This document shows positions 54,388 through 63,982 of a DNA stretch of 64,000 nt, piece after piece. The DNA lies in NCBI GenBank assembly GCA_001023575.1, contig CP011489.1, positions 1,549,001-1,613,000 on the forward strand, written 5' to 3'. The translations under genes were made by a program, and so were the position numbers. Position 1 is the first letter of the stretch; each line of letters starts with the position of its first letter. Below the pieces are notes generated by a model that saw only the letters and a program-made list of their open reading frames with translations, was not told the DNA's origin and did not search any database. The stretch is from Actinobacteria bacterium IMCC26256 (GTDB lineage: Bacteria > Actinomycetota > Acidimicrobiia > IMCC26256).

Positions 54388-54426
54388 CGCTTAGCGTCTG
54401 AAATCGCTAGATTTTACCTTTAGGAA

Positions 54427-54486
54427 AGACAGCATTTAGGACAGTATTAGAGACGGTATTTAGGACAGCACCAAGAACAGTATTAA
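54427..54486 (+). repeat. Five degenerate 12-nt tandem repeats upstream of tRNA-Gly
   Basis: AGACAGCATTTA, GGACAGTATTAG, AGACGGTATTTA, GGACAGCACCAA and GAACAGTATTAA, ending 6 nt before the tRNA. The period equals that of the array in front of tRNA-Ala, but the sequence differs. Confidence 0.75.
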
Positions 54487-54492
54487 GAACAC

Positions 54493-54566
54493 GCGGATGT
54501 AGCTCAATGGTAGAGCCCCAGCCTTCCAAGCTGGCCATGCCAGTTCGATCCTGGTCATCCGCTCCA
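54493..54566 (+). tRNA. tRNA-Gly (anticodon TCC) with encoded CCA
   Basis: GCGGATG pairs with CATCCGC; anticodon stem CCAGC/GCTGG encloses CTTCCAA with anticodon TCC; the T-arm contains GTTCGATCC. The discriminator T is followed by a genomic CCA (54564-54566), unlike the other two tRNAs here. Its 3' half and 21 nt beyond are repeated exactly at 63171, marking it as an integration target. Confidence 0.96.
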
Positions 54567-54587
54567 CGCATCACCGCAGGCCAGAGG
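54520..54587 (+). repeat. 68-nt repeat, copy 1 (attL-like), in tRNA-Gly
   Basis: Positions 54520-54587 recur without mismatch at 63171-63238. The repeat starts in the anticodon arm and runs 21 nt past the CCA (to CCAGAGG). A perfect 68-nt repeat 8.65 kb apart indicates a recent or conserved site-specific event. Confidence 0.95.
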
Positions 54588-54706: not shown

Positions 54707-57700
54707 CTATCGACTCGGCGGAGGAGTAAATCCCACCGGCCAAATTGTCGTCTCGTCCCACAACACTCCCGTGAGGATCGTGCCGGACAAGTTGGCATTA
54801 GTCAGGTCGGCTTCCGTCAGATCAACGTTGGTTAAGTCCGCATCCTCTAAATTGGCATCTGTCAGGTCCGCTAGCCAGAGATTCGAGCCCTCCAAGTCCG
54901 CACCTCTTAAGTTGGCTCCACTCAAATTCACACCTTGCATAAGGGAACCCACGTTCTCGACCTCTGGATCCCACATCACGCAATCTTCCAAGTTCGCTCC
55001 CGAGAGGTCAGCGTCGGACATGTCTATGTGCCCCATCATGGCACCCCCCAGATTGCTCCGGCGCATATCAGCACTGTCAAGTACCGAAAAGGTCAAGCGT
55101 GCGCCCCTGAGGTCCGCTCCTGAGAGATTGACTTTCCAAAGGTTCGCATTAAACAGGTCCGCATCCGTCATGGTTGCATTCGTGAGGTTCGCCCCTTCCA
55201 ATTTTGCGTTCTGAAGGTTCGCCTCTGCCAGATCAGCGTTACTCAGATTGGCATTCAGCAGATTGGCATCCACCAAGTTCGCATCCGTCATGGTTGCATT
55301 CGTGAGGTTCGCCCCTTCCAATTTTGCGTTCTGAAGGTTCGCCTCTGCCAGATCAGCGTTACTCAGATTGGCATTCAGCAGATTGGCATCCACCAAGTTC
55401 GCATCCGTCATGGTTGCATTCGTGAGATTTGCCCCCTCCAATTTTGCGTTCTGAAGGTTCGCCTCTGCCAGATCAGCATTACTCAGATTGGCATTCAGCA
55501 GATTGGCATCCACCAAGTTCGCACACCTCAGGTTCGTAGAAGCTAGGTCAGCCTCAACCAGATTCGCCTTATGCATGTTGGCATTCTCAAAGTTAGCGAA
55601 ACCCGCCGTGACTTTCGCCATCTTTGTCACCTCTAGATTACAGCCCGCGAGGTTGGCATGGCGGAGATTGGCGCTCTCTAGGTTCGCTTCCCTTAAGTTC
55701 GAGCCTTTCACATTTGCACGAGACAGATTTGCCCCTAAGAGCATGAGTCCTTGCAAATTATGTAGCGGGAGATCTAGTCGCCTCAAGTCTGCGATGCGTA
55801 GGTCGGCGCCAGTTAATTCTGCGCCTCTCAATACTGCGCCAGAGAAAACTGCCTCCGATAGATCAGCGTCAGTGAAATTGACGCCCACCAAGTAGGCGTT
55901 TCGGAGGTTTGCCCCGGACAAATCCGCACGTGTTAGATCGGCATTAAATAGCTTCGCTCCCTCGAGGTTCGCCCCTTTTAAGTTAGCGCCGAGGAGTTTT
56001 GCTCCGTCCAATCGAATTCCGGCCAAATCCCTGTTCTCTAAGTTGGCCCCACGCAGGTTCGCGTCTGTCAGGTCTGCACCAGGCATGGGCACAGAATTGT
56101 TTACAGCTGCAACTGGCTCGTCGAACAGATCCAACGCATCGAGTGGCAACGCAGAGGACGCAGAGGTGTTTACAGCTATAACTGGCTCAGTAGGGGCATC
56201 AGCTTCGAACGGGACCCCTCGCCGCTCTAGTTCATTGATGAGCACGGCGCGGTGGATCTCGGCTCCCACGCCGCTAAGCCTCGTCGACGGATCCATCAAT
56301 GGGTGTGCTTGACACTCGACCCAAATGCCAAGAGCAGCGAACCCCTCGTCCAACCAACAGTTCTCATGGTTGTCAACAAAAAACTGTGACGCCGAAACTA
56401 ACCTCTTTGAAGCAGACCAAGAAACTACCCCGACAACGTTTATGCCTGCGCCGCGAAGCGCAGCAAGCGAGCTTGTGACGCTATCTCCAGTCGTAATTTG
56501 ATCCTCCACAAGCACAACTGGCCGCGTCTCACGAGCTGCTGAGGGATCCATCACGATTCCGCCATTAGCCTTCATTAGGAGTGGGGAGTATGTAACACCA
56601 GCAGCAGCGGCAGCGCGAATCGCCAATCTTTCAGAGACCTGAGCTGGCTTGCTAGCGGAGAAGGGGCTCGATGGGACCGAAGTAATTACTGCTTGAGGGA
56701 AAAGAGCAGCTACGTGGGCACCAATAACAGTGGCAGGAAACTCAATTAGCGACAGTCTCGGCTCGGGCCCAGAGCCAATTGACTTTGAGGTCCAATTCTT
56801 CGCAAATTTCCAGAGGCCCTCGCCCCAGATTGACCTTGAGTAATAGGTGCAGGTGTAAACAGGAACCTCGAACCCGGGAATTTCAACGACGGGGAACATG
56901 GAGACCAACGCTCTATTCCTCACAGGCTTTAAGTGCCCTGTCGGCCCGGCACGAAAGAGGTCTGCTCCCGAGAGCAGGGTCCCAGGAAAGCCCCAAAGCC
57001 CCTGATCAGGATTCCTGTCGACGAGGCACAGGCGGGCCTCGGGGCCAACGTTCTCTAGGAGGTGGCGTTGGAGTGCGGCACGCTCCGTCTGCGGGCCTCC
57101 TGCCAATAGGGCAGCAGCCGCAATTTTTGCACTGATGTTTCGAACGGGGATGCTGGTGGAGTCTCTTATTGCCGCCACTGCTTGATCATCCAGGCTCTCG
57201 CCTAGACGGATGCGAGCCCTGATTTCACTGAGCCGAACACCTGCTGCGGACTGGTACTCCTCTAAGGATTCGACTCCAAGGTTTGCTTCAACCATTCTGC
57301 CACGGAGGCGTTGTTTGAATTTCACATCTTTGTTTGCCCAAGTTGGATTCTCGATCCAGGGTGGGAGCGTGTACCGGCACCCTGCCTTGTCAGCCGCTTC
57401 CTTGTCCGCTTCGGTATCCCCCATATATACAAGGTTCTCTGGCTCAATCTGGAACCTCTCGCAGAGCACGAGGAGTTTCGCAGCAGTGGTCATAGTCCTG
57501 TCTGCGGGGAGGAGCACTTCATAGTTAATTCGCAGCAACCCGAGAAGGGTCGACGCATATGGGAGTGGGGAGCGAGTGATTACTCCAACTCTGTAGCCAC
57601 TTGCCATCAACCGCGCCGGGAATAGTCGAACAGCATCCGAGAATTTCAGTTTCTTCATACTTGCGCCTGCGCGACTGTCCTCAAGTATTAGAGCCGGGGA

Positions 57701-57778
57701 GCGCCGTCCATCTGTTAGGGCGGCAGTATCAGCAAGCGTGCCATCAAGATCAAAGGCCCACGCTAGTAATTCAGCCAT
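54707..57778 (-). CDS. HAD-phosphoribosyltransferase-pentapeptide repeat fusion protein
   Basis: A 1023-aa three-part protein. Residues 1-150 are a HAD-type phosphatase (DLDGT at 10-14, GDTEADKE at 120-127). Residues 355-460 are a type I phosphoribosyltransferase with the PRPP loop VVLVEDQITTGDS (421-433). From about 567 to 1010 the protein is A(D/N)Lxx pentapeptide repeats, expected to form a right-handed beta-helix. A linker of ~200 residues separates the first two domains. The start ATGGCTGA overlaps the dprA-like stop by 8 nt, so the two are co-translated. HAD plus PRTase suggests nucleotide chemistry; the beta-helix might mimic DNA or bind a partner (inference). I know no characterised protein with this layout. 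Confidence 0.85.
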   Translation of the reverse strand: MAELLAWAFDLDGTLADTAALTDGRRSPALILEDSRAGASMKKLKFSDAVRLFPARLMASGYRVGVITRSPLPYASTLLGLLRINYEVLLPADRTMTTAAKLLVLCERFQIEPENLVYMGDTEADKEAADKAGCRYTLPPWIENPTWANKDVKFKQRLRGRMVEANLGVESLEEYQSAAGVRLSEIRARIRLGESLDDQAVAAIRDSTSIPVRNISAKIAAAALLAGGPQTERAALQRHLLENVGPEARLCLVDRNPDQGLWGFPGTLLSGADLFRAGPTGHLKPVRNRALVSMFPVVEIPGFEVPVYTCTYYSRSIWGEGLWKFAKNWTSKSIGSGPEPRLSLIEFPATVIGAHVAALFPQAVITSVPSSPFSASKPAQVSERLAIRAAAAAGVTYSPLLMKANGGIVMDPSAARETRPVVLVEDQITTGDSVTSSLAALRGAGINVVGVVSWSASKRLVSASQFFVDNHENCWLDEGFAALGIWVECQAHPLMDPSTRLSGVGAEIHRAVLINELERRGVPFEADAPTEPVIAVNTSASSALPLDALDLFDEPVAAVNNSVPMPGADLTDANLRGANLENRDLAGIRLDGAKLLGANLKGANLEGAKLFNADLTRADLSGANLRNAYLVGVNFTDADLSEAVFSGAVLRGAELTGADLRIADLRRLDLPLHNLQGLMLLGANLSRANVKGSNLREANLESANLRHANLAGCNLEVTKMAKVTAGFANFENANMHKANLVEADLASTNLRCANLVDANLLNANLSNADLAEANLQNAKLEGANLTNATMTDANLVDANLLNANLSNADLAEANLQNAKLEGANLTNATMTDANLVDANLLNANLSNADLAEANLQNAKLEGANLTNATMTDADLFNANLWKVNLSGADLRGARLTFSVLDSADMRRSNLGGAMMGHIDMSDADLSGANLEDCVMWDPEVENVGSLMQGVNLSGANLRGADLEGSNLWLADLTDANLEDADLTNVDLTEADLTNANLSGTILTGVLWDETTIWPVGFTPPPSR
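55161..55520 (-). repeat. Three 120-nt tandem copies in the pentapeptide region
   Basis: The period is exactly 120 nt (40 residues, eight pentapeptides). Copies 55161-55280 and 55281-55400 are identical; copy 55401-55520 differs at four positions. The protein unit begins near NATMTDANLV. DNA-level identity implies recent duplication or gene conversion, and copy number may vary between strains. Confidence 0.95.
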
Positions 57779-58832
57779 TATTGATTAGATCCCAAATTTT
57801 TGGGATGTCGCTTCTGTCCTTGAGTACTAGGTCGGCGACAGGTTTCCTCGCAAGGATTTTCGCTGCGAGCGCTCCCTTGGCTCCGAGTATGTTCGTTTCC
57901 TTTTCCTTAGAGCCCTTCTTGCTCTTCGCAACTTCACTACCCTCATTCGTCTCATTGGGGAGCGATAAACCCTTTGGGTCAGTGAGGGCGTAATTCGCTT
58001 CACTCTGTACCTCGAATTCGTTCGACGGTCTCGGTCGGCCAACGATCAGCGGGCGCCCTTGCTCGAGTGTGAAACGCGCTGTGTGAAGTGTTCCAGAGGG
58101 GACGCCCGCCTGTGCGATGACAGTGGCGTTAGCGATCCCCGATTGGAGGCGATCTCGCGCGACTAGGTGCCGTGGTTCGGGGGCAGTCCCGCATTTAACC
58201 TCTGCAATTAGACCACCGCCCGCTTCGAGAATTCGTTCGGCTAGCCCCACGTTGGCAGGAGGCGAAGGAACATCTACGCCGGAGCCGAGGATGGCCCATG
58301 TTTTACATCCCCACTCGAGCGCCTTCTCGTGGGCGGCAGCATCTATGCCGAGTGCTAAGCCGGAAACAATACCTACACCGGTCTCACCGGCCCACTTGCA
58401 AACCTCGTCGACAACAACCCTGCCATATCGTGTTGGATTCCTAGTTCCGACTACAGCAAGAGTTAACCCTTGGGGCAGAGTTCCCCTAACCCAAAGCAGA
58501 GCCGGAGGTGAGGGAATAGTCCGAAGGCGGTCCGGGAAGTCATCGTCGAAAAATCCGATCAAACGCACGCCGTGTGGGAGATCCCCTGGGGTGCCCCCCG
58601 GTTCCGTCGGAACATTCCACCCGTTTTCTTTATCTTTCGAGTTGCCGAGGACCGCAACTAGTTCAGCTTCCGTTGCATGCACCAATCGGCCCCAAGTACC
58701 GAATGCACTTGCAAGATCTACCGCCTTTTTGGGCCCGACGCCTCGAAGATTAAGAAGCTCTTGTAAACCAGCGGCAGTCTTTAAGTTGAGGGTGCCGTCG
58801 TTTTCAGGCCGTTCGACTTCAAATAGCGTCAT
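57771..58832 (-). CDS. DprA/Smf-like SLOG protein (island copy)
   Basis: About 353 aa from the ATG at 58832 (AAGGG 8 nt upstream; the frame runs to 58856). An N-terminal helix-hairpin-helix (residues ~22-50, LNLRGVGPKKAVDLA) is followed by a DprA-type Rossmann/SLOG fold (about 88-290) with AVVGTRNPTRYG and SGLALGIDAAAHEKAL. The C-terminus has a Lys/Ser-rich linker and a small helical end. Housekeeping DprA loads RecA on incoming ssDNA; this copy lies in an accessory unit and is coupled to the HAD-PRTase-pentapeptide gene, so it may be a nucleic-acid or nucleotide sensor in a conflict system instead (inference). The Rossmann core appears complete. Confidence 0.85.
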   Translation of the reverse strand: MTLFEVERPENDGTLNLKTAAGLQELLNLRGVGPKKAVDLASAFGTWGRLVHATEAELVAVLGNSKDKENGWNVPTEPGGTPGDLPHGVRLIGFFDDDFPDRLRTIPSPPALLWVRGTLPQGLTLAVVGTRNPTRYGRVVVDEVCKWAGETGVGIVSGLALGIDAAAHEKALEWGCKTWAILGSGVDVPSPPANVGLAERILEAGGGLIAEVKCGTAPEPRHLVARDRLQSGIANATVIAQAGVPSGTLHTARFTLEQGRPLIVGRPRPSNEFEVQSEANYALTDPKGLSLPNETNEGSEVAKSKKGSKEKETNILGAKGALAAKILARKPVADLVLKDRSDIPKIWDLINNG

Positions 58833-59116
58833 GTCAAACCCTTGGCCCGGAGGCAAGCCGTAGCCCGTTCAACAAGTCCCCCACTACGTTTTGCAAGCTA
58901 CGCCCCCACCCAATTCGGCACTCAAGAAAAAGATCCTGCCACCTTTGGCAGTTCAATCGACTTACCCAACCACAGTTGCGGCTAACGGTCCCTAAACACT
59001 ACCGGCCAAACCGGTGCTGCTGCATTCCGTCGCAACCCACCCAATTACCTAATTGGCCACTTCGTTATGGAACGTGTTGCCCGCTAACGATTCCCCATAC
59101 GGGTTATTGCCATTCT

Positions 59117-60046
59117 TCAGGCTGGTAGCAGTTTGAAACTGATCTGATACCTGTAGAACGAGATTGCAGGGACAGACGAGATCGCCCAGCGGAGTTTCTG
59201 GTCATCCTCTAAGGCGATGATTACCCCCTCGACTGTCTGGTCTACGTCGGCCATCTGCTCCTTGACGTAACCCATATAGCGCAACACCTGCCCAACTACA
59301 GCGTCACTCGTTCTGCCGCGCTTCAGCTCTATTACAAGAAGACGTTTCTTATCTTTGCTAATTGCCAAGATATCCATTGTTCCTGCATCGGTCTGGAACT
59401 GCTGCCCTACTGCTTCTCCGTCCTCTTCATAGATAATGAAGTCTTTGCTGAGCTCTGTCGAGTTCCAGTTCTTGACCAAGAAGTCCTCGAGGTGTTTCTC
59501 CATAGCGAATGCAGCCATGTCTTCAATATCTGTTTCGTGTGGGTCACCGGGACCACTGTGAGGCCCGGCACCAATTAGAACTTCAAGTTCGGTGATGTGA
59601 TTGTCGATCCAGGAGACTGTAGAGAGGGAGCCGGTTGAATTTTTAAGAGCATCACTCATGTCGGTTCTGTCGATCACAACATCAAGCCAGTTCACTTTTC
59701 GCCGATGAGGCAAGACCTGCCCCTCTGCGTAGTAGTAGTCGCTCTTAACTTCGCCAACAAGGTAAGAGCCCTGCCCGTTCGGGCTGAGAACAATGTCACC
59801 TTGTTTGATGCCCTTAGACACCTGCCATAGCCCCCCGCACGCGAGACCGGCGCTGATCTTGCTGCGATCGGGTTTCTGTGTGATAAGGACCGGGATGAAC
59901 TCCTTGTTGAAATCTCGCCACTCTTCTGGCAACTTTCGGCTGAGGTCCTCGTGAATATCAAAGTCCGTACCAATAAATCCCTCTGCGGCACACAACTGTG
60001 AATGAACACCTTGTTTGCCGAGCCTCACCAAGAAATAACGCTTCAT
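59117..60046 (-). CDS. PD-(D/E)XK nuclease, DUF91/NucS-like
   Basis: About 309 aa from the ATG at 60046 (frame to 60085); the conserved-looking MKRYFLVRLGKQG begins there and AAGGG lies upstream. The N-terminal ~140 residues (GIKQGDIVLSPNGQGSYLVGEV) look like a small beta-barrel of the type seen in restriction-associated proteins. The C-terminal domain has TMDILAISKDKKRLLVIELKRG, i.e. D...E-x-K (Asp225, Glu240, Lys242), then QVLRYMGYVKE, which is the RecB/NucS-type nuclease core, with an upstream Glu in EKHLEDFL. It should cut DNA; specificity is unknown. It follows the GIY-YIG gene by about 60 nt. Confidence 0.82.
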   Translation of the reverse strand: MKRYFLVRLGKQGVHSQLCAAEGFIGTDFDIHEDLSRKLPEEWRDFNKEFIPVLITQKPDRSKISAGLACGGLWQVSKGIKQGDIVLSPNGQGSYLVGEVKSDYYYAEGQVLPHRRKVNWLDVVIDRTDMSDALKNSTGSLSTVSWIDNHITELEVLIGAGPHSGPGDPHETDIEDMAAFAMEKHLEDFLVKNWNSTELSKDFIIYEEDGEAVGQQFQTDAGTMDILAISKDKKRLLVIELKRGRTSDAVVGQVLRYMGYVKEQMADVDQTVEGVIIALEDDQKLRWAISSVPAISFYRYQISFKLLPA

Positions 60047-60106
60047 TAAAGTTGTTTTCCCTTCAGGAGATATCCAGTGACTCATTGAGTGGATTGCGGG
60101 ATGACC

Positions 60107-60919
60107 CTACCGGAGAGTTGGGTGCTGCTGCTTTCCCTTGCCATCTACCCAAATATGTAATTGATGGCTGAACTGCCCGAACTTGATGTCCTTGACGCGT
60201 CGGCCGCGCAGACTTTCTACATCTAGTTCAGTTTTGTCGAGGAGCGGTACCTGCCATCGATAGTGAGACCACCGTTTCGACCTGCGAATGTATTTTGGCT
60301 TCCCTAGAAGATCGCGGTGAATCGCTACGGCACCCACGATGAAGCGGTGATCGACTTTGCCGTGAACACCGATGAGAACCTTCGGAGCTGACGAAGGTTT
60401 CTCACGCCACTTCTCAATCAGGCGAGTGAGGTCCCAGTTCTTCTCCATGTTTGAGACAGCATCCGAATCCAAGGGCAGCGCTGCATCAAACTTCTTGCGA
60501 CCATCAATAAGAAAATCTCCTGCCGCGAGATAAACCAATAATGCGCCACCTGTTTCGCGTCCGATTGCGCTCAACGTCAGAGGCTTTAGCTGGGGCCGCT
60601 CCCAGAGGTCTGGGGGAACTCCAACCGGAGAGAACTTGGGGCCATCTCCTGGCGCCTTATTGAACTTTGGCTTCATCGACGAAATCAGGGCTGCTTCAAC
60701 AGCCTTTGCTTCTGACTCGCTCGCATATGGACCAGCGATCGAGAGGTCGAACTTGTTCTTCGCCAACCAGGCTTTCAACTCTTTGTTATGGCTCCCACTT
60801 GTGTGGGTTAGAGCACGCGAAACGGTGTGTCCATAACCCACATAGACAGGAACTCCCGCCAGCGTCTTGTAGAGGTACACAAAGTTCTGGTTCTTCGTCG
60901 TCTTCACCACTTTTGTCAT
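60107..60919 (-). CDS. GIY-YIG domain protein
   Basis: A 270-aa protein. Residues 12-95 form a GIY-YIG nuclease fold: VYLY (14-17), VYVGYG (25-30), Arg35, His39, Glu75 (AVEAAL) and Asn87 supply the catalytic set. The remaining ~175 residues (LLVYLAAGDFLIDGRKKFDAAL ... VLIGVHGKVDHRFIVGAVAIHR) form a second domain I do not recognise. TAAGGT lies 6 nt before the ATG, suggesting a leaderless start and a promoter within the unit. With the PD-(D/E)XK gene downstream it may form a two-nuclease module. Confidence 0.78.
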   Translation of the reverse strand: MTKVVKTTKNQNFVYLYKTLAGVPVYVGYGHTVSRALTHTSGSHNKELKAWLAKNKFDLSIAGPYASESEAKAVEAALISSMKPKFNKAPGDGPKFSPVGVPPDLWERPQLKPLTLSAIGRETGGALLVYLAAGDFLIDGRKKFDAALPLDSDAVSNMEKNWDLTRLIEKWREKPSSAPKVLIGVHGKVDHRFIVGAVAIHRDLLGKPKYIRRSKRWSHYRWQVPLLDKTELDVESLRGRRVKDIKFGQFSHQLHIWVDGKGKQQHPTLR

Positions 60920-60992: not shown

Positions 60993-62936
60993 CTAATCAT
61001 CGTTCTGAATTGTGACTGCTCCTTGTTCCCGATCAATTGCGGCGACCGCAGAAGCATTCGACAACCTGACCAAGAAGCTCTCGTCGCCTTCGGCGAAGAA
61101 GTCGGGCAAGACAGCAATTGAAACAAATTTAGAGACCTGGTTAGGTTCGAAGGTAACAACCATCGTTATTCGCGGCAGCGTGAAATCGACTAGCGCCTCT
61201 GCGCTTGAACTCACAATCGCAACCTCAACAGAGATGCGCGTAGCAGCGGGGCGGGACAGAGTGACAGGAACTCGCAGCACTCTGCTCTTTCCGAGGGAGA
61301 GGTCACCCTCTTCGACCGTTACATCGCCTACCGAGAATGAAGGTAGGGCGCTGGGGTTATCGTCATCGTCGATGATCGTGCCCGTGCCGATGATGCTTCC
61401 CGGGACCGCTCCTCCGAACACATCGGCCAGTTCGACAGTAAACTCTTGGTCTCCTTCGGCGACGGAATCGGATTTTATACAAATATTTATTTTCTGCTGC
61501 GTGGCCGTCTCACCGTTTGATCTCGGTGTAAATCGGATGGTGCCGGACAAGGAGGTGAAGTCAGTTCCAGCAGCCGCCCCAGTTGCTCCCTGCCCAGAGA
61601 TGACCGAGAATTTTGCTGTAACGGCGGAGTGCGCCGGAGACGAAAGCGTCACCGGGAATGACGCATACCTACATCTTCCAGAATCCCCTTCGACAATTTC
61701 GACATCGCCGATGGAGAGAACTGGCAGCGGCTGCGCTTCGTTCAGATCCCAGAAATAGGCTCCCCACTCCAGCGGCGCACCGTCCTCAGCCCAAGTGTCA
61801 CGCCACGCCTTGCCAACTATGAGCCCCGAATCGTTGATCTCCGTAATATAGGTTTGCCGTGCTTTCGCTGAAGGAACAAGCGAGTTCCCCGCCTTCAATT
61901 TGGTGAGTTTTCCGGTCGTTGGGTCCCAATAAAATCCGTCGATACGTCCATCTATCGAGAATGCTGTCCCGGCAATTTGGCCCAAATTATTGATTGAGGT
62001 CGGAGACATTACGACTATTCCGGGAAACCGACCAATGTCACGATGCACCCCCGTATTTATGTCTACGAACCATGCCTTATTAACTTCATAAGCACCGCCC
62101 GCAGGGGCCGATACGAAACTCTCGGCGGAGACTTGGCCGAGGTCATTAATGTCCCATGCAAGTGAACCGCAGCCGAGTCCCAAGTCAGACCATTCACCGG
62201 TCACCGGACTCCAAACAGCAGCCTTCGTGCACCAGCCCTCAAAAGCTGTGGGACCGCCGGTGGCGTAACCCAGATAGCCAACTATGAACCCGGCATCGTT
62301 AACTGCCATGGGCGCAACAGACGGACCCCCGGCTGGCAGCTTCCATGGAGCGTCAATCGTGACAGTCCATGACCCATCCGCACGCGTCCACTCTGCAAAC
62401 TCTCCACTGTTGCTCGGATCTGGGGATACCTTGCCGAATGCCTTGTCCCCGGCATCATTGACGACCCATAAGTTGGAACCGCTATAACCAAGCGGCAGAG
62501 GAAGGTAGGCGAACTCTGCGGTGCGCGGATTCCAAACAAAACCACGCTGGTCATGAACGCCGAAAACGTCACCAGACTCCGAAATCGCACTGGTCGCAGT
62601 GCCGCCGGGGAGCCTTTCAAGTGGAGGGCCAATGATCCGCTCACCGGTGCGGATATCCATGAACACCGGATACACCGGTTCCCACCCGTTGCCTTCATCA
62701 GTCATGCCTGCAACTTGGCCTGCCGAGTTCAATTTCAGACCTTCCAAACGCCCCAGATCTGCAGAAAGCGGATGCGGCTCAGGAGATGCAACTACCTCGA
62801 GGCTGCTAGCTGGTTCAGAGGCGACACCCACGGTTAGACCGCCAAGCGATACCAATAACAGAAACGTAGTTAGCAGTGCTGCCCTCGACCGAGCCCATGT
62901 GCTTTGTAAACGCCGCAAATCTCTGCCCGAATGCAT
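60993..62936 (-). CDS. Secreted HAF-repeat / Calx-beta domain protein
   Basis: About 647 aa from the ATG at 62936: AAGGAGG stands 8 nt upstream, a strong ribosome-binding site that decides the start (the frame is open to 62990). A signal peptide or anchor (ALLTTFLLLVSLGGLTVGVA) is followed by HAF-type repeats (INDLGQVSAES, INNLGQIAGTA, INDSGLIVGKA and others, about residues 60-400) and two Calx-beta domains (VEIVEGDSG ... GTIIDDDDNP; VTVEEGDLS ... VTIQNDD), which usually bind calcium. Probably an extracellular or surface protein; the function is unknown. It is the outermost gene at the right end of the Gly unit. Confidence 0.85.
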   Translation of the reverse strand: MHSGRDLRRLQSTWARSRAALLTTFLLLVSLGGLTVGVASEPASSLEVVASPEPHPLSADLGRLEGLKLNSAGQVAGMTDEGNGWEPVYPVFMDIRTGERIIGPPLERLPGGTATSAISESGDVFGVHDQRGFVWNPRTAEFAYLPLPLGYSGSNLWVVNDAGDKAFGKVSPDPSNSGEFAEWTRADGSWTVTIDAPWKLPAGGPSVAPMAVNDAGFIVGYLGYATGGPTAFEGWCTKAAVWSPVTGEWSDLGLGCGSLAWDINDLGQVSAESFVSAPAGGAYEVNKAWFVDINTGVHRDIGRFPGIVVMSPTSINNLGQIAGTAFSIDGRIDGFYWDPTTGKLTKLKAGNSLVPSAKARQTYITEINDSGLIVGKAWRDTWAEDGAPLEWGAYFWDLNEAQPLPVLSIGDVEIVEGDSGRCRYASFPVTLSSPAHSAVTAKFSVISGQGATGAAAGTDFTSLSGTIRFTPRSNGETATQQKINICIKSDSVAEGDQEFTVELADVFGGAVPGSIIGTGTIIDDDDNPSALPSFSVGDVTVEEGDLSLGKSRVLRVPVTLSRPAATRISVEVAIVSSSAEALVDFTLPRITMVVTFEPNQVSKFVSIAVLPDFFAEGDESFLVRLSNASAVAAIDREQGAVTIQNDD

Positions 62937-63045
62937 TTCCGAATCCTCCTTCATGCTCAGAGAAAACACAATAGGCACACCTATGGTCAATTATCTGCAG
63001 CTTACGCCCGAGCATCATTGACTCTCCCTCATTGATGCTCCCGTT

Positions 63046-63170: not shown

Positions 63171-63238
63171 AGCCTTCCAAGCTGGCCATGCCAGTTCGAT
63201 CCTGGTCATCCGCTCCACGCATCACCGCAGGCCAGAGG
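63171..63238 (+). repeat. 68-nt repeat, copy 2 (tRNA-Gly 3' half plus arm)
   Basis: Identical to 54520-54587. It lacks a tRNA 5' half, so it is not a functional gene. Because it includes the 21-nt arm beyond the CCA, it is probably the start of a further unit, not the chromosomal right end, which should lack the arm (compare copy C at tRNA-Ala). Confidence 0.93.
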
Positions 63239-63388: not shown

Positions 63389-63394
63389 TACGGC

Positions 63395-63982
63395 ATGGAC
63401 ATTGGTCAGCTCGTCACCAACGCTAAAGAATCGGCGAACATACCAATCCGCAAACTTGCTGCCGACGCTGGGGTCGCCGGCAGCACGATCACTCGCATCC
63501 AGGCCGGCTCTGTCGACCCCTCTGTTAGCACGCTGGCGCGCATTCTGAACGCCGCGGGCTACGACATTGAAATAGTCGCAACGCCCCACGGTGCACGCAA
63601 GCACCCGCGGCTGGCCGATCTCATCGACGCTTGGTCATATCGCGACTCCACGATTCGCCTGGAATGGAGTCGTTGGCGAACGTTCCTCGACCGCCTCGCC
63701 CTGCACGCCGAGAACCTGCCAGAAGCGATCTACACCTCGCCACCGCCATCCGGAGACCAAATCATCGACAATCTCCTTGCGGCCACTGCAGAAAAACTCG
63801 CGGACGACGCGAACCTGCCGCGACCATCGTGGACCAAAAACGTTGAGAAGCTCGCGACGCCATACCGACCTGCAACGGCACGCAATCTCGCCGAGACAAA
63901 CATCCCCCAACAGTTAGCAGAGCGCGGACTCATGATCGACACCGCCAGCCTTTGGCGTCCCGGCAGGACCGTCGGTGTTTGA
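63395..63982 (+). CDS. XRE-like HTH regulator, possible antitoxin
   Basis: 195 aa from the ATG at 63395 (frame open from 63356); the promoter spacing decides this start. The N-terminal helix-turn-helix (MDIGQLVTNAKESANIPIRKLAADAGVAGSTITRIQAGSV, roughly residues 4-45) is of the Cro/XRE type, followed by VSTLARILNAAGYDIEIV. The C-terminal ~130 residues are not recognised; the ending ARNLAETNIPQQLAERGLMIDTASLW resembles antitoxins of AbiEii-type nucleotidyltransferase pairs, which would put a toxin gene beyond the window (inference, not seen). It lies in the second Gly unit. Confidence 0.8.
   Translation: MDIGQLVTNAKESANIPIRKLAADAGVAGSTITRIQAGSVDPSVSTLARILNAAGYDIEIVATPHGARKHPRLADLIDAWSYRDSTIRLEWSRWRTFLDRLALHAENLPEAIYTSPPPSGDQIIDNLLAATAEKLADDANLPRPSWTKNVEKLATPYRPATARNLAETNIPQQLAERGLMIDTASLWRPGRTVGV

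Follow-up and report, generated by a model that had tools for sequence, protein, structure and literature searches.

A probable ShosTA-type toxin-antitoxin pair with a divergent, pentapeptide-tailed toxin on a tRNA-Gly island of an actinobacterium

Two adjacent genes of an actinobacterium probably constitute a divergent ShosTA-type toxin-antitoxin system carried on a tRNA-integrated defense island. The novelty lies at the C-terminus of the ShosT-like toxin, where an acidic pentapeptide tail of ~440 aa is the single example so far. The genes lie in a window of 64,000 nucleotides (the whole stretch of DNA analyzed; positions 1549001-1613000 of a 2.46-Mb single-contig genome). Both are on the minus strand, with the DprA-like gene upstream and the HAD-PRTase-pentapeptide gene downstream, and they share an 8-nt overlap, read directly from the sequence, which suggests that their translation is coupled. 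An alternative start of the DprA-like gene, an in-frame TTG upstream at 58856, gives a protein of 361 aa (ORF 57771-58856). The genes and their conserved regions, by position in the window, are:

57771..58832, minus strand: ShosA-like (DprA-family) gene, 353 aa from the ATG at 58832 (Pfam, tree and PDB match)
58629..58763, minus strand: helix-hairpin-helix region, aa 32-76 of the 361-aa form (Pfam HHH_5, 5e-6)
58041..58571, minus strand: DprA/SLOG Rossmann-like domain, aa 96-272 (Pfam DNA_processg_A; TIGR00732, 5e-46)
57771..57778, minus strand: 8-nt overlap of the two reading frames, ATGGCTGA (sequence)
54707..57778, minus strand: ShosT-like gene, 1023 aa from an ATG start, encoding a HAD domain, a middle region, a PRTase and a pentapeptide tail
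57356..57778, minus strand: HAD domain, aa 1-141 (Pfam HAD_2, 2e-8; hhalign to the ShosT HAD)
56480..56518, minus strand: PRPP-binding loop VVLVEDQITTGDS, aa 421-433, with E425 and D426 (pyrE, Pribosyltran, hhalign)

An earlier note on this DNA had described two genes overlapping by 8 nt, one with a helix-hairpin-helix and a DprA/SLOG fold and the other joining a HAD phosphatase, a PRPP-binding transferase and ~90 pentapeptide repeats. Most of this anatomy is borne out, by the open reading frames and their overlap, by Pfam HHH_5 and DNA_processg_A on the first gene and by Pfam HAD_2 and Pentapeptide on the second, where we count about 87 repeats. The residues that the note had singled out (D10 of the HAD domain; E425 and D426 of the PRPP loop) lie where it placed them. 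The transferase stands in part: the PRPP loop is present, but PRTase profiles match the loop region only (pyrE 2e-5; Pribosyltran 0.013, under its cut-off).

The HAD domain connects the downstream protein to known ShosT toxins. In alignment, its catalytic motifs are intact (D10, D12, T68, K101, D121 and D125), and hhalign against the ShosT HAD of the S. fredii alignment gives 98.3% probability and 37% identity over 131 columns. A stretch D-x-x-x-L-x-x-x-R past motif I is common to the window HAD and the ShosT HADs. Past the HAD domain, the PRPP loop alone aligns to ShosT (local E 1e-4), the remaining domain is unaligned, and residues from about 150 to 400 are without a clear relative. The PRTase assignment is thus weaker than the other domain calls and depends mostly on the PRPP loop. 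No PADLOC ShosT model matches the window toxin, even at E 10, and the HAD-PRTase relatives are matched only weakly (1e-5 to 1e-17); the PADLOC PsyrT model gives no match to it either. Among solved structures, matches to the window toxin are confined to the HAD domain and the PRPP loop, apart from insignificant ones. A Ter-type HAD/PRTase biosynthetic module was considered and rejected (PRTase_2 15.4 bits against a cut-off of 28.8), and no TerD or ATP-grasp domain was found among the scanned island proteins.

The upstream protein is a clear member of the DprA family (Pfam DNA_processg_A, 7e-50) that falls below the equivalog cut-off of TIGR00732 (156.6 vs 191). Its best PDB sequence match is ShosA (9vzo, 8.7e-24), with DprA (8zva) only slightly behind, and the PADLOC ShosA model (PDLC03961) matches it at 2e-56. 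This last match is no proof by itself, because the model also recognizes chromosomal dprA: it finds matches in 360 of 396 genomes of the phylum and in 10 of 14 controls. We rejected it as evidence of identity, as ordinary dprA is matched as strongly as the window gene. ShosA calls based solely on PDLC03961 may be false.

A tree of DprA proteins was therefore built from the window protein, 18 ShosA-type proteins (those encoded beside HAD and/or PRTase genes) and 28 dprA proteins from relatives. The window protein groups with the ShosA-type proteins, apart from dprA, and the split is supported at 100/99. A separate chromosomal dprA is present in the same genome, and a sister position of the window protein to it is rejected (p 2e-32). 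The tree does not separate a position of the window protein within the ShosA group from one beside it (p 0.28), and its branch is long. By its place in the tree, the window DprA belongs to the ShosA side and not to the chromosomal dprA lineage.

A DprA-family gene next to a HAD/PRTase gene is the arrangement of ShosTA, and the earlier view that the locus matches no named system is not supported. A P2-phage pair of DprA and PRTase is reported to protect E. coli against T7 and lambda, in a paper that cites shosTA as a toxin-antitoxin system in which the DprA homolog is the antitoxin (PMC9122126). In a review's account of Pu et al. 2025 (PMC12593503), ShosT acts as both phosphoribosyltransferase and pyrophosphatase and disturbs purine metabolism, with DNA duplications, filamentation and death as its effects, ShosA binds DNA and promotes recombination, and Gp0.7 of T7 is a trigger. 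A filamentous phage also carries annotated ShosT (HAD/PRTase) and ShosA (PMC11878078). Structures have been solved for ShosT (8zvb, 9w2p) and ShosA (9vzo); those of ShosT are of the P2 4C9 protein, which is encoded beside its DprA.

Comparison with these systems shows the shared plan and the divergence. In the E. coli P2-like phage 4C9 (LR595883), as in the window, DprA-family and PRTase genes are adjacent in the order A then T, the former encoding a DprA/SLOG protein and the latter an N-terminal HAD-like region with the PRTase C-terminal to it. The 4C9 ShosT, however, has 424 aa, a degenerate HAD motif I (FSIADVV, no DxD) and no pentapeptide tail, and in sequence it resembles the window toxin very little. 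The ShosTA of Pseudomonas phage PfAC02a (OR790968) resembles the window pair in having HAD and PRTase on one chain with DxD intact, beside ShosA, and in its location on a mobile element beside another defense system (Kiwa in PfAC02a). It differs in gene order (T then A) and in carrying two Top1-type zinc ribbons in place of pentapeptide repeats. PsyrTA (PADLOC PsyrT/PsyrA) likewise has an antitoxin of DprA type. The PsyrT model describes a longer protein (689 positions), and its C-terminal end is matched by some ShosT relatives.

The role of the DprA-like protein separates a toxin-antitoxin system from DprA-led abortive infection, in which DprA would sense phage or single-stranded DNA and switch the HAD-PRTase on, with the helix as a scaffold. 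Rousset et al. are cited in favor of such a sensor/effector, and the domain anatomy is compatible with it. We nevertheless consider it unlikely, as the literature on shosTA and related systems gives DprA homologs the role of antitoxin (PMC9122126, PMC12593503). DNA or nucleotide sensing by the DprA part had been proposed from the sequence; a DNA-binding partner of DprA type is retained, but one that is unlikely to be simply an activating sensor.

The pairing of the two genes recurs. Full-length HAD-PRTase genes were collected mostly with toxin sequences or alignments as queries and the rest through DprA, and at all of the about 17 distinct loci a DprA gene is adjacent. Among them, rhizobial and actinobacterial pairs (S. 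fredii, L044; Mesorhizobium, L111-L113; G025, L047; G563, L081) have DprA directly adjoining the HAD-PRTase gene, as in the window, and the HAD domain is 37% identical to the window HAD in the S. fredii alignment. Their toxins differ in being 407-431 aa long, with a C-terminal zinc ribbon and without a repeat tail, and their middle part is unaligned with that of the window toxin. Neighbors at related loci include helicases, a methyltransferase or Kiwa. In S. meliloti, the same parts are split over three genes (PRTase, DprA and HAD). On the Deinococcus plasmid pDrdI (L039:4302-5720), the parts are rearranged: HAD is fused to DprA, and a DEAD/DEAH helicase gene lies nearby.

The window toxin itself is isolated. 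No close relative was found in genome contigs or in viral contigs searched with its own peptides, in plasmids or in the order. Three of its four weak non-self matches in the phylum cover the HAD domain alone and the fourth (G025) is a real ShosT; a candidate within the class (G404) was rejected as an ordinary HAD. Full ShosT matches occur in two of 395 genomes of the class, the window genome and one other.

The pair resides on an accessory insertion at a tRNA-Gly gene, with the following features:

54493..54566, plus strand: tRNA-Gly (TCC), integration site of the island (ARAGORN)
54520..54587, plus strand: 68-nt direct repeat, left copy (3' part of the tRNA-Gly plus 21 nt), att-like
63171..63238, plus strand: 68-nt direct repeat, right copy, exact
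59117..60085, minus strand: PADLOC phage-defense candidate PDC-S02, with a NucS/YhcG-type PDDEXK nuclease domain (PADLOC 2e-141; Pfam NucS_C 9e-7)
60107..60919, minus strand: possible GIY-YIG nuclease (weak Pfam GIY-YIG, 0.012, under the cut-off)

The two 68-nt repeats bracket 8.65 kb containing the gene pair and are the only full copies found in the genome. Two congeners lack the insertion. In G396, the gene that in the window genome starts ~11.4 kb downstream of the tRNA-Gly comes within about 50 bp after it. In G397, a flavin monooxygenase gene, the next conserved gene, is about 30 bp from the tRNA, and the order of the tRNA and the gene that adjoins it in G396 differs. Because nothing is inserted at the tRNA-Gly of either congener, the pair is placed on an accessory insertion, in agreement with the accessory unit proposed earlier. 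No integrase was seen in or beside the island; five tyrosine-recombinase genes are located elsewhere in the genome.

Several further features of the island and its borders were noted. A 665-aa protein (60993-62990) has weak matches to HAF-type repeats and Calx-beta domains and is apparently on the cell surface or secreted, an odd companion for defense genes. A 60-nt direct repeat (73% identical) occurs in the intergenic region upstream of the dprA-like gene (58996-59055) and at the 3' end of the GIY-YIG-like gene (60104-60163), possibly as a shared regulatory or recombination site. Short repeats with 12-nt spacing (GACAGTATTTAG-like) lie between tRNA-Pro and tRNA-Gly (54423-54490). Directly past the right repeat, an XRE-type HTH gene is followed by a DUF6036 nucleotidyltransferase gene (63392-63982 in the window; L159:76-588; 1612392-1613487 in the genome), which resemble a second toxin-antitoxin pair at the same tRNA-Gly hotspot.

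Location and distribution also bear on whether the genes form a metabolic or natural-transformation operon with no link to conflict. HAD and PRTase domains occur in nucleotide salvage and DprA acts in transformation, and these general roles would fit such an operon. However, the genome has its separate chromosomal dprA, the pair is missing from relatives and sits inside a repeat-bracketed island, and broad core synteny of the pair is not seen in the class or order, making this explanation extremely improbable. The earlier note had named universal synteny in core genomes, or a match to a characterized metabolic operon, as what would speak against a conflict module; the distribution, two of 395 genomes of the class and neither of the two congeners, is of another kind. 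Of its proposal of a new module for defense or conflict, the accessory, defense-associated setting and the combination of a DprA-type protein with a nucleotide-chemistry enzyme stand, but the system would be the known ShosTA and only the tail is new.

The C-terminal part of the toxin consists of pentapeptide repeats:

54758..56077, minus strand: pentapeptide-repeat domain, aa 568-1007 (~440 aa; Pfam Pentapeptide, 9e-102)
55125..55604, minus strand: 120-bp (40-aa, 8-pentapeptide) tandem duplications within the repeat region (repeat search, 78-93% identical)

Residues 568-937 hold some 75 of the repeats in one register, and residues 949-1007 hold 12 in a second register. Each coil of the known pentapeptide fold takes four repeats (PMC8145042), so that the tail should form a beta-helix of about 22 coils. 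The 120-bp tandem duplications indicate that the repeat region has probably grown recently. Together with the long branch of the DprA-like protein, such duplications could also mark a locus that has decayed or become inactive, with a tail that arose by neutral expansion of repeats. That is very unlikely, given that both frames are open and the catalytic motifs of the HAD domain and PRPP loop are intact.

In relatives, this end of the toxin is occupied differently. Topoisomerase-type zinc ribbons (one or two) are C-terminal in five of six relatives scanned, and the P2 toxin has neither module. Because relatives carry zinc ribbons where the window toxin has pentapeptides, a different module appears to sit at an exchangeable C-terminal end. 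No second pentapeptide-tailed ShosT was present among the fetched HAD-PRTase loci, and a literature search for pentapeptide repeats with PRTase and DprA or antiphage function found nothing. Among the phage matches listed for the full window toxin, the repeat tail alone is covered. The same genome has six other pentapeptide-repeat loci (at about 101 kb, 107.6 kb, 771.6 kb, 1316 kb, 1490 kb and 1880 kb), and these about six genes are possible donors of the tail.

The tail could be the working end of the toxin, a DNA-mimicking helix like that of Qnr or MfpA that would bind gyrase or another DNA-binding enzyme and bring the toxin to it. In favor of this, the tail combines length with acidity (net charge about -31, pI 4.3), MfpA mimics DNA and binds gyrase (PMC8145042), and the topoisomerase I-type zinc ribbons at the same end of related ShosT toxins hint at a link to DNA topology. 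Like the tail, Qnr and MfpA are acidic pentapeptide-repeat proteins with a right-handed quadrilateral beta-helix, the fold expected here, but they are stand-alone proteins of about 180-220 aa, whereas the tail is about twice as long and fused to enzymes. Its scores are far under the curated cut-offs (Qnr 128.9 vs 240; MfpA 102.4 vs 360), which rule out membership of either family. Acidity does not distinguish it among pentapeptide proteins, most of which are without known function. We give this explanation a small chance of being right. A slim chance is also given to a ShosT-type toxin whose DNA-mimicking helix docks on gyrase or another DNA-handling enzyme and couples poisoning of the purine pool to DNA topology or replication; if true, this would be a targeting architecture undescribed for ShosTA.

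Under the preferred reading, a ShosTA-type toxin-antitoxin system, toxicity, neutralization and triggering by phage are extended to the window pair by analogy. The downstream gene would encode the toxin, a single chain carrying a HAD phosphatase and a PRPP-dependent phosphoribosyltransferase. When unrestrained, it would disturb the PRPP and purine nucleotide pool, damaging DNA and arresting growth. The upstream DprA-like protein would be the antitoxin, binding DNA and restraining the effect of the toxin by direct contact or by aiding repair, until infection upsets this balance and the infected cell no longer supports the phage. With translation coupled at the 8-nt overlap, at least as much antitoxin as toxin would be made. 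We infer that the pentapeptide beta-helix is most likely a module for localization or partner binding, because it occupies the C-terminal place of the topoisomerase-type zinc ribbons of relatives.

ShosTA is a recently characterized defense system in which the toxin acts via nucleotide metabolism and the antitoxin is a DprA homolog, and this locus would extend it to a very divergent actinobacterial form. The findings carry a warning for annotation: the PADLOC ShosA model alone does not discriminate between ShosA and ordinary dprA, and divergent toxins escape the ShosT model. They also suggest that the C-terminal end of the toxin is an exchangeable module, with none in P2, zinc ribbons in many relatives and a pentapeptide helix here. 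If this module guides the toxin to a target connected with DNA, a comparison of its forms would provide a direct route to that target.
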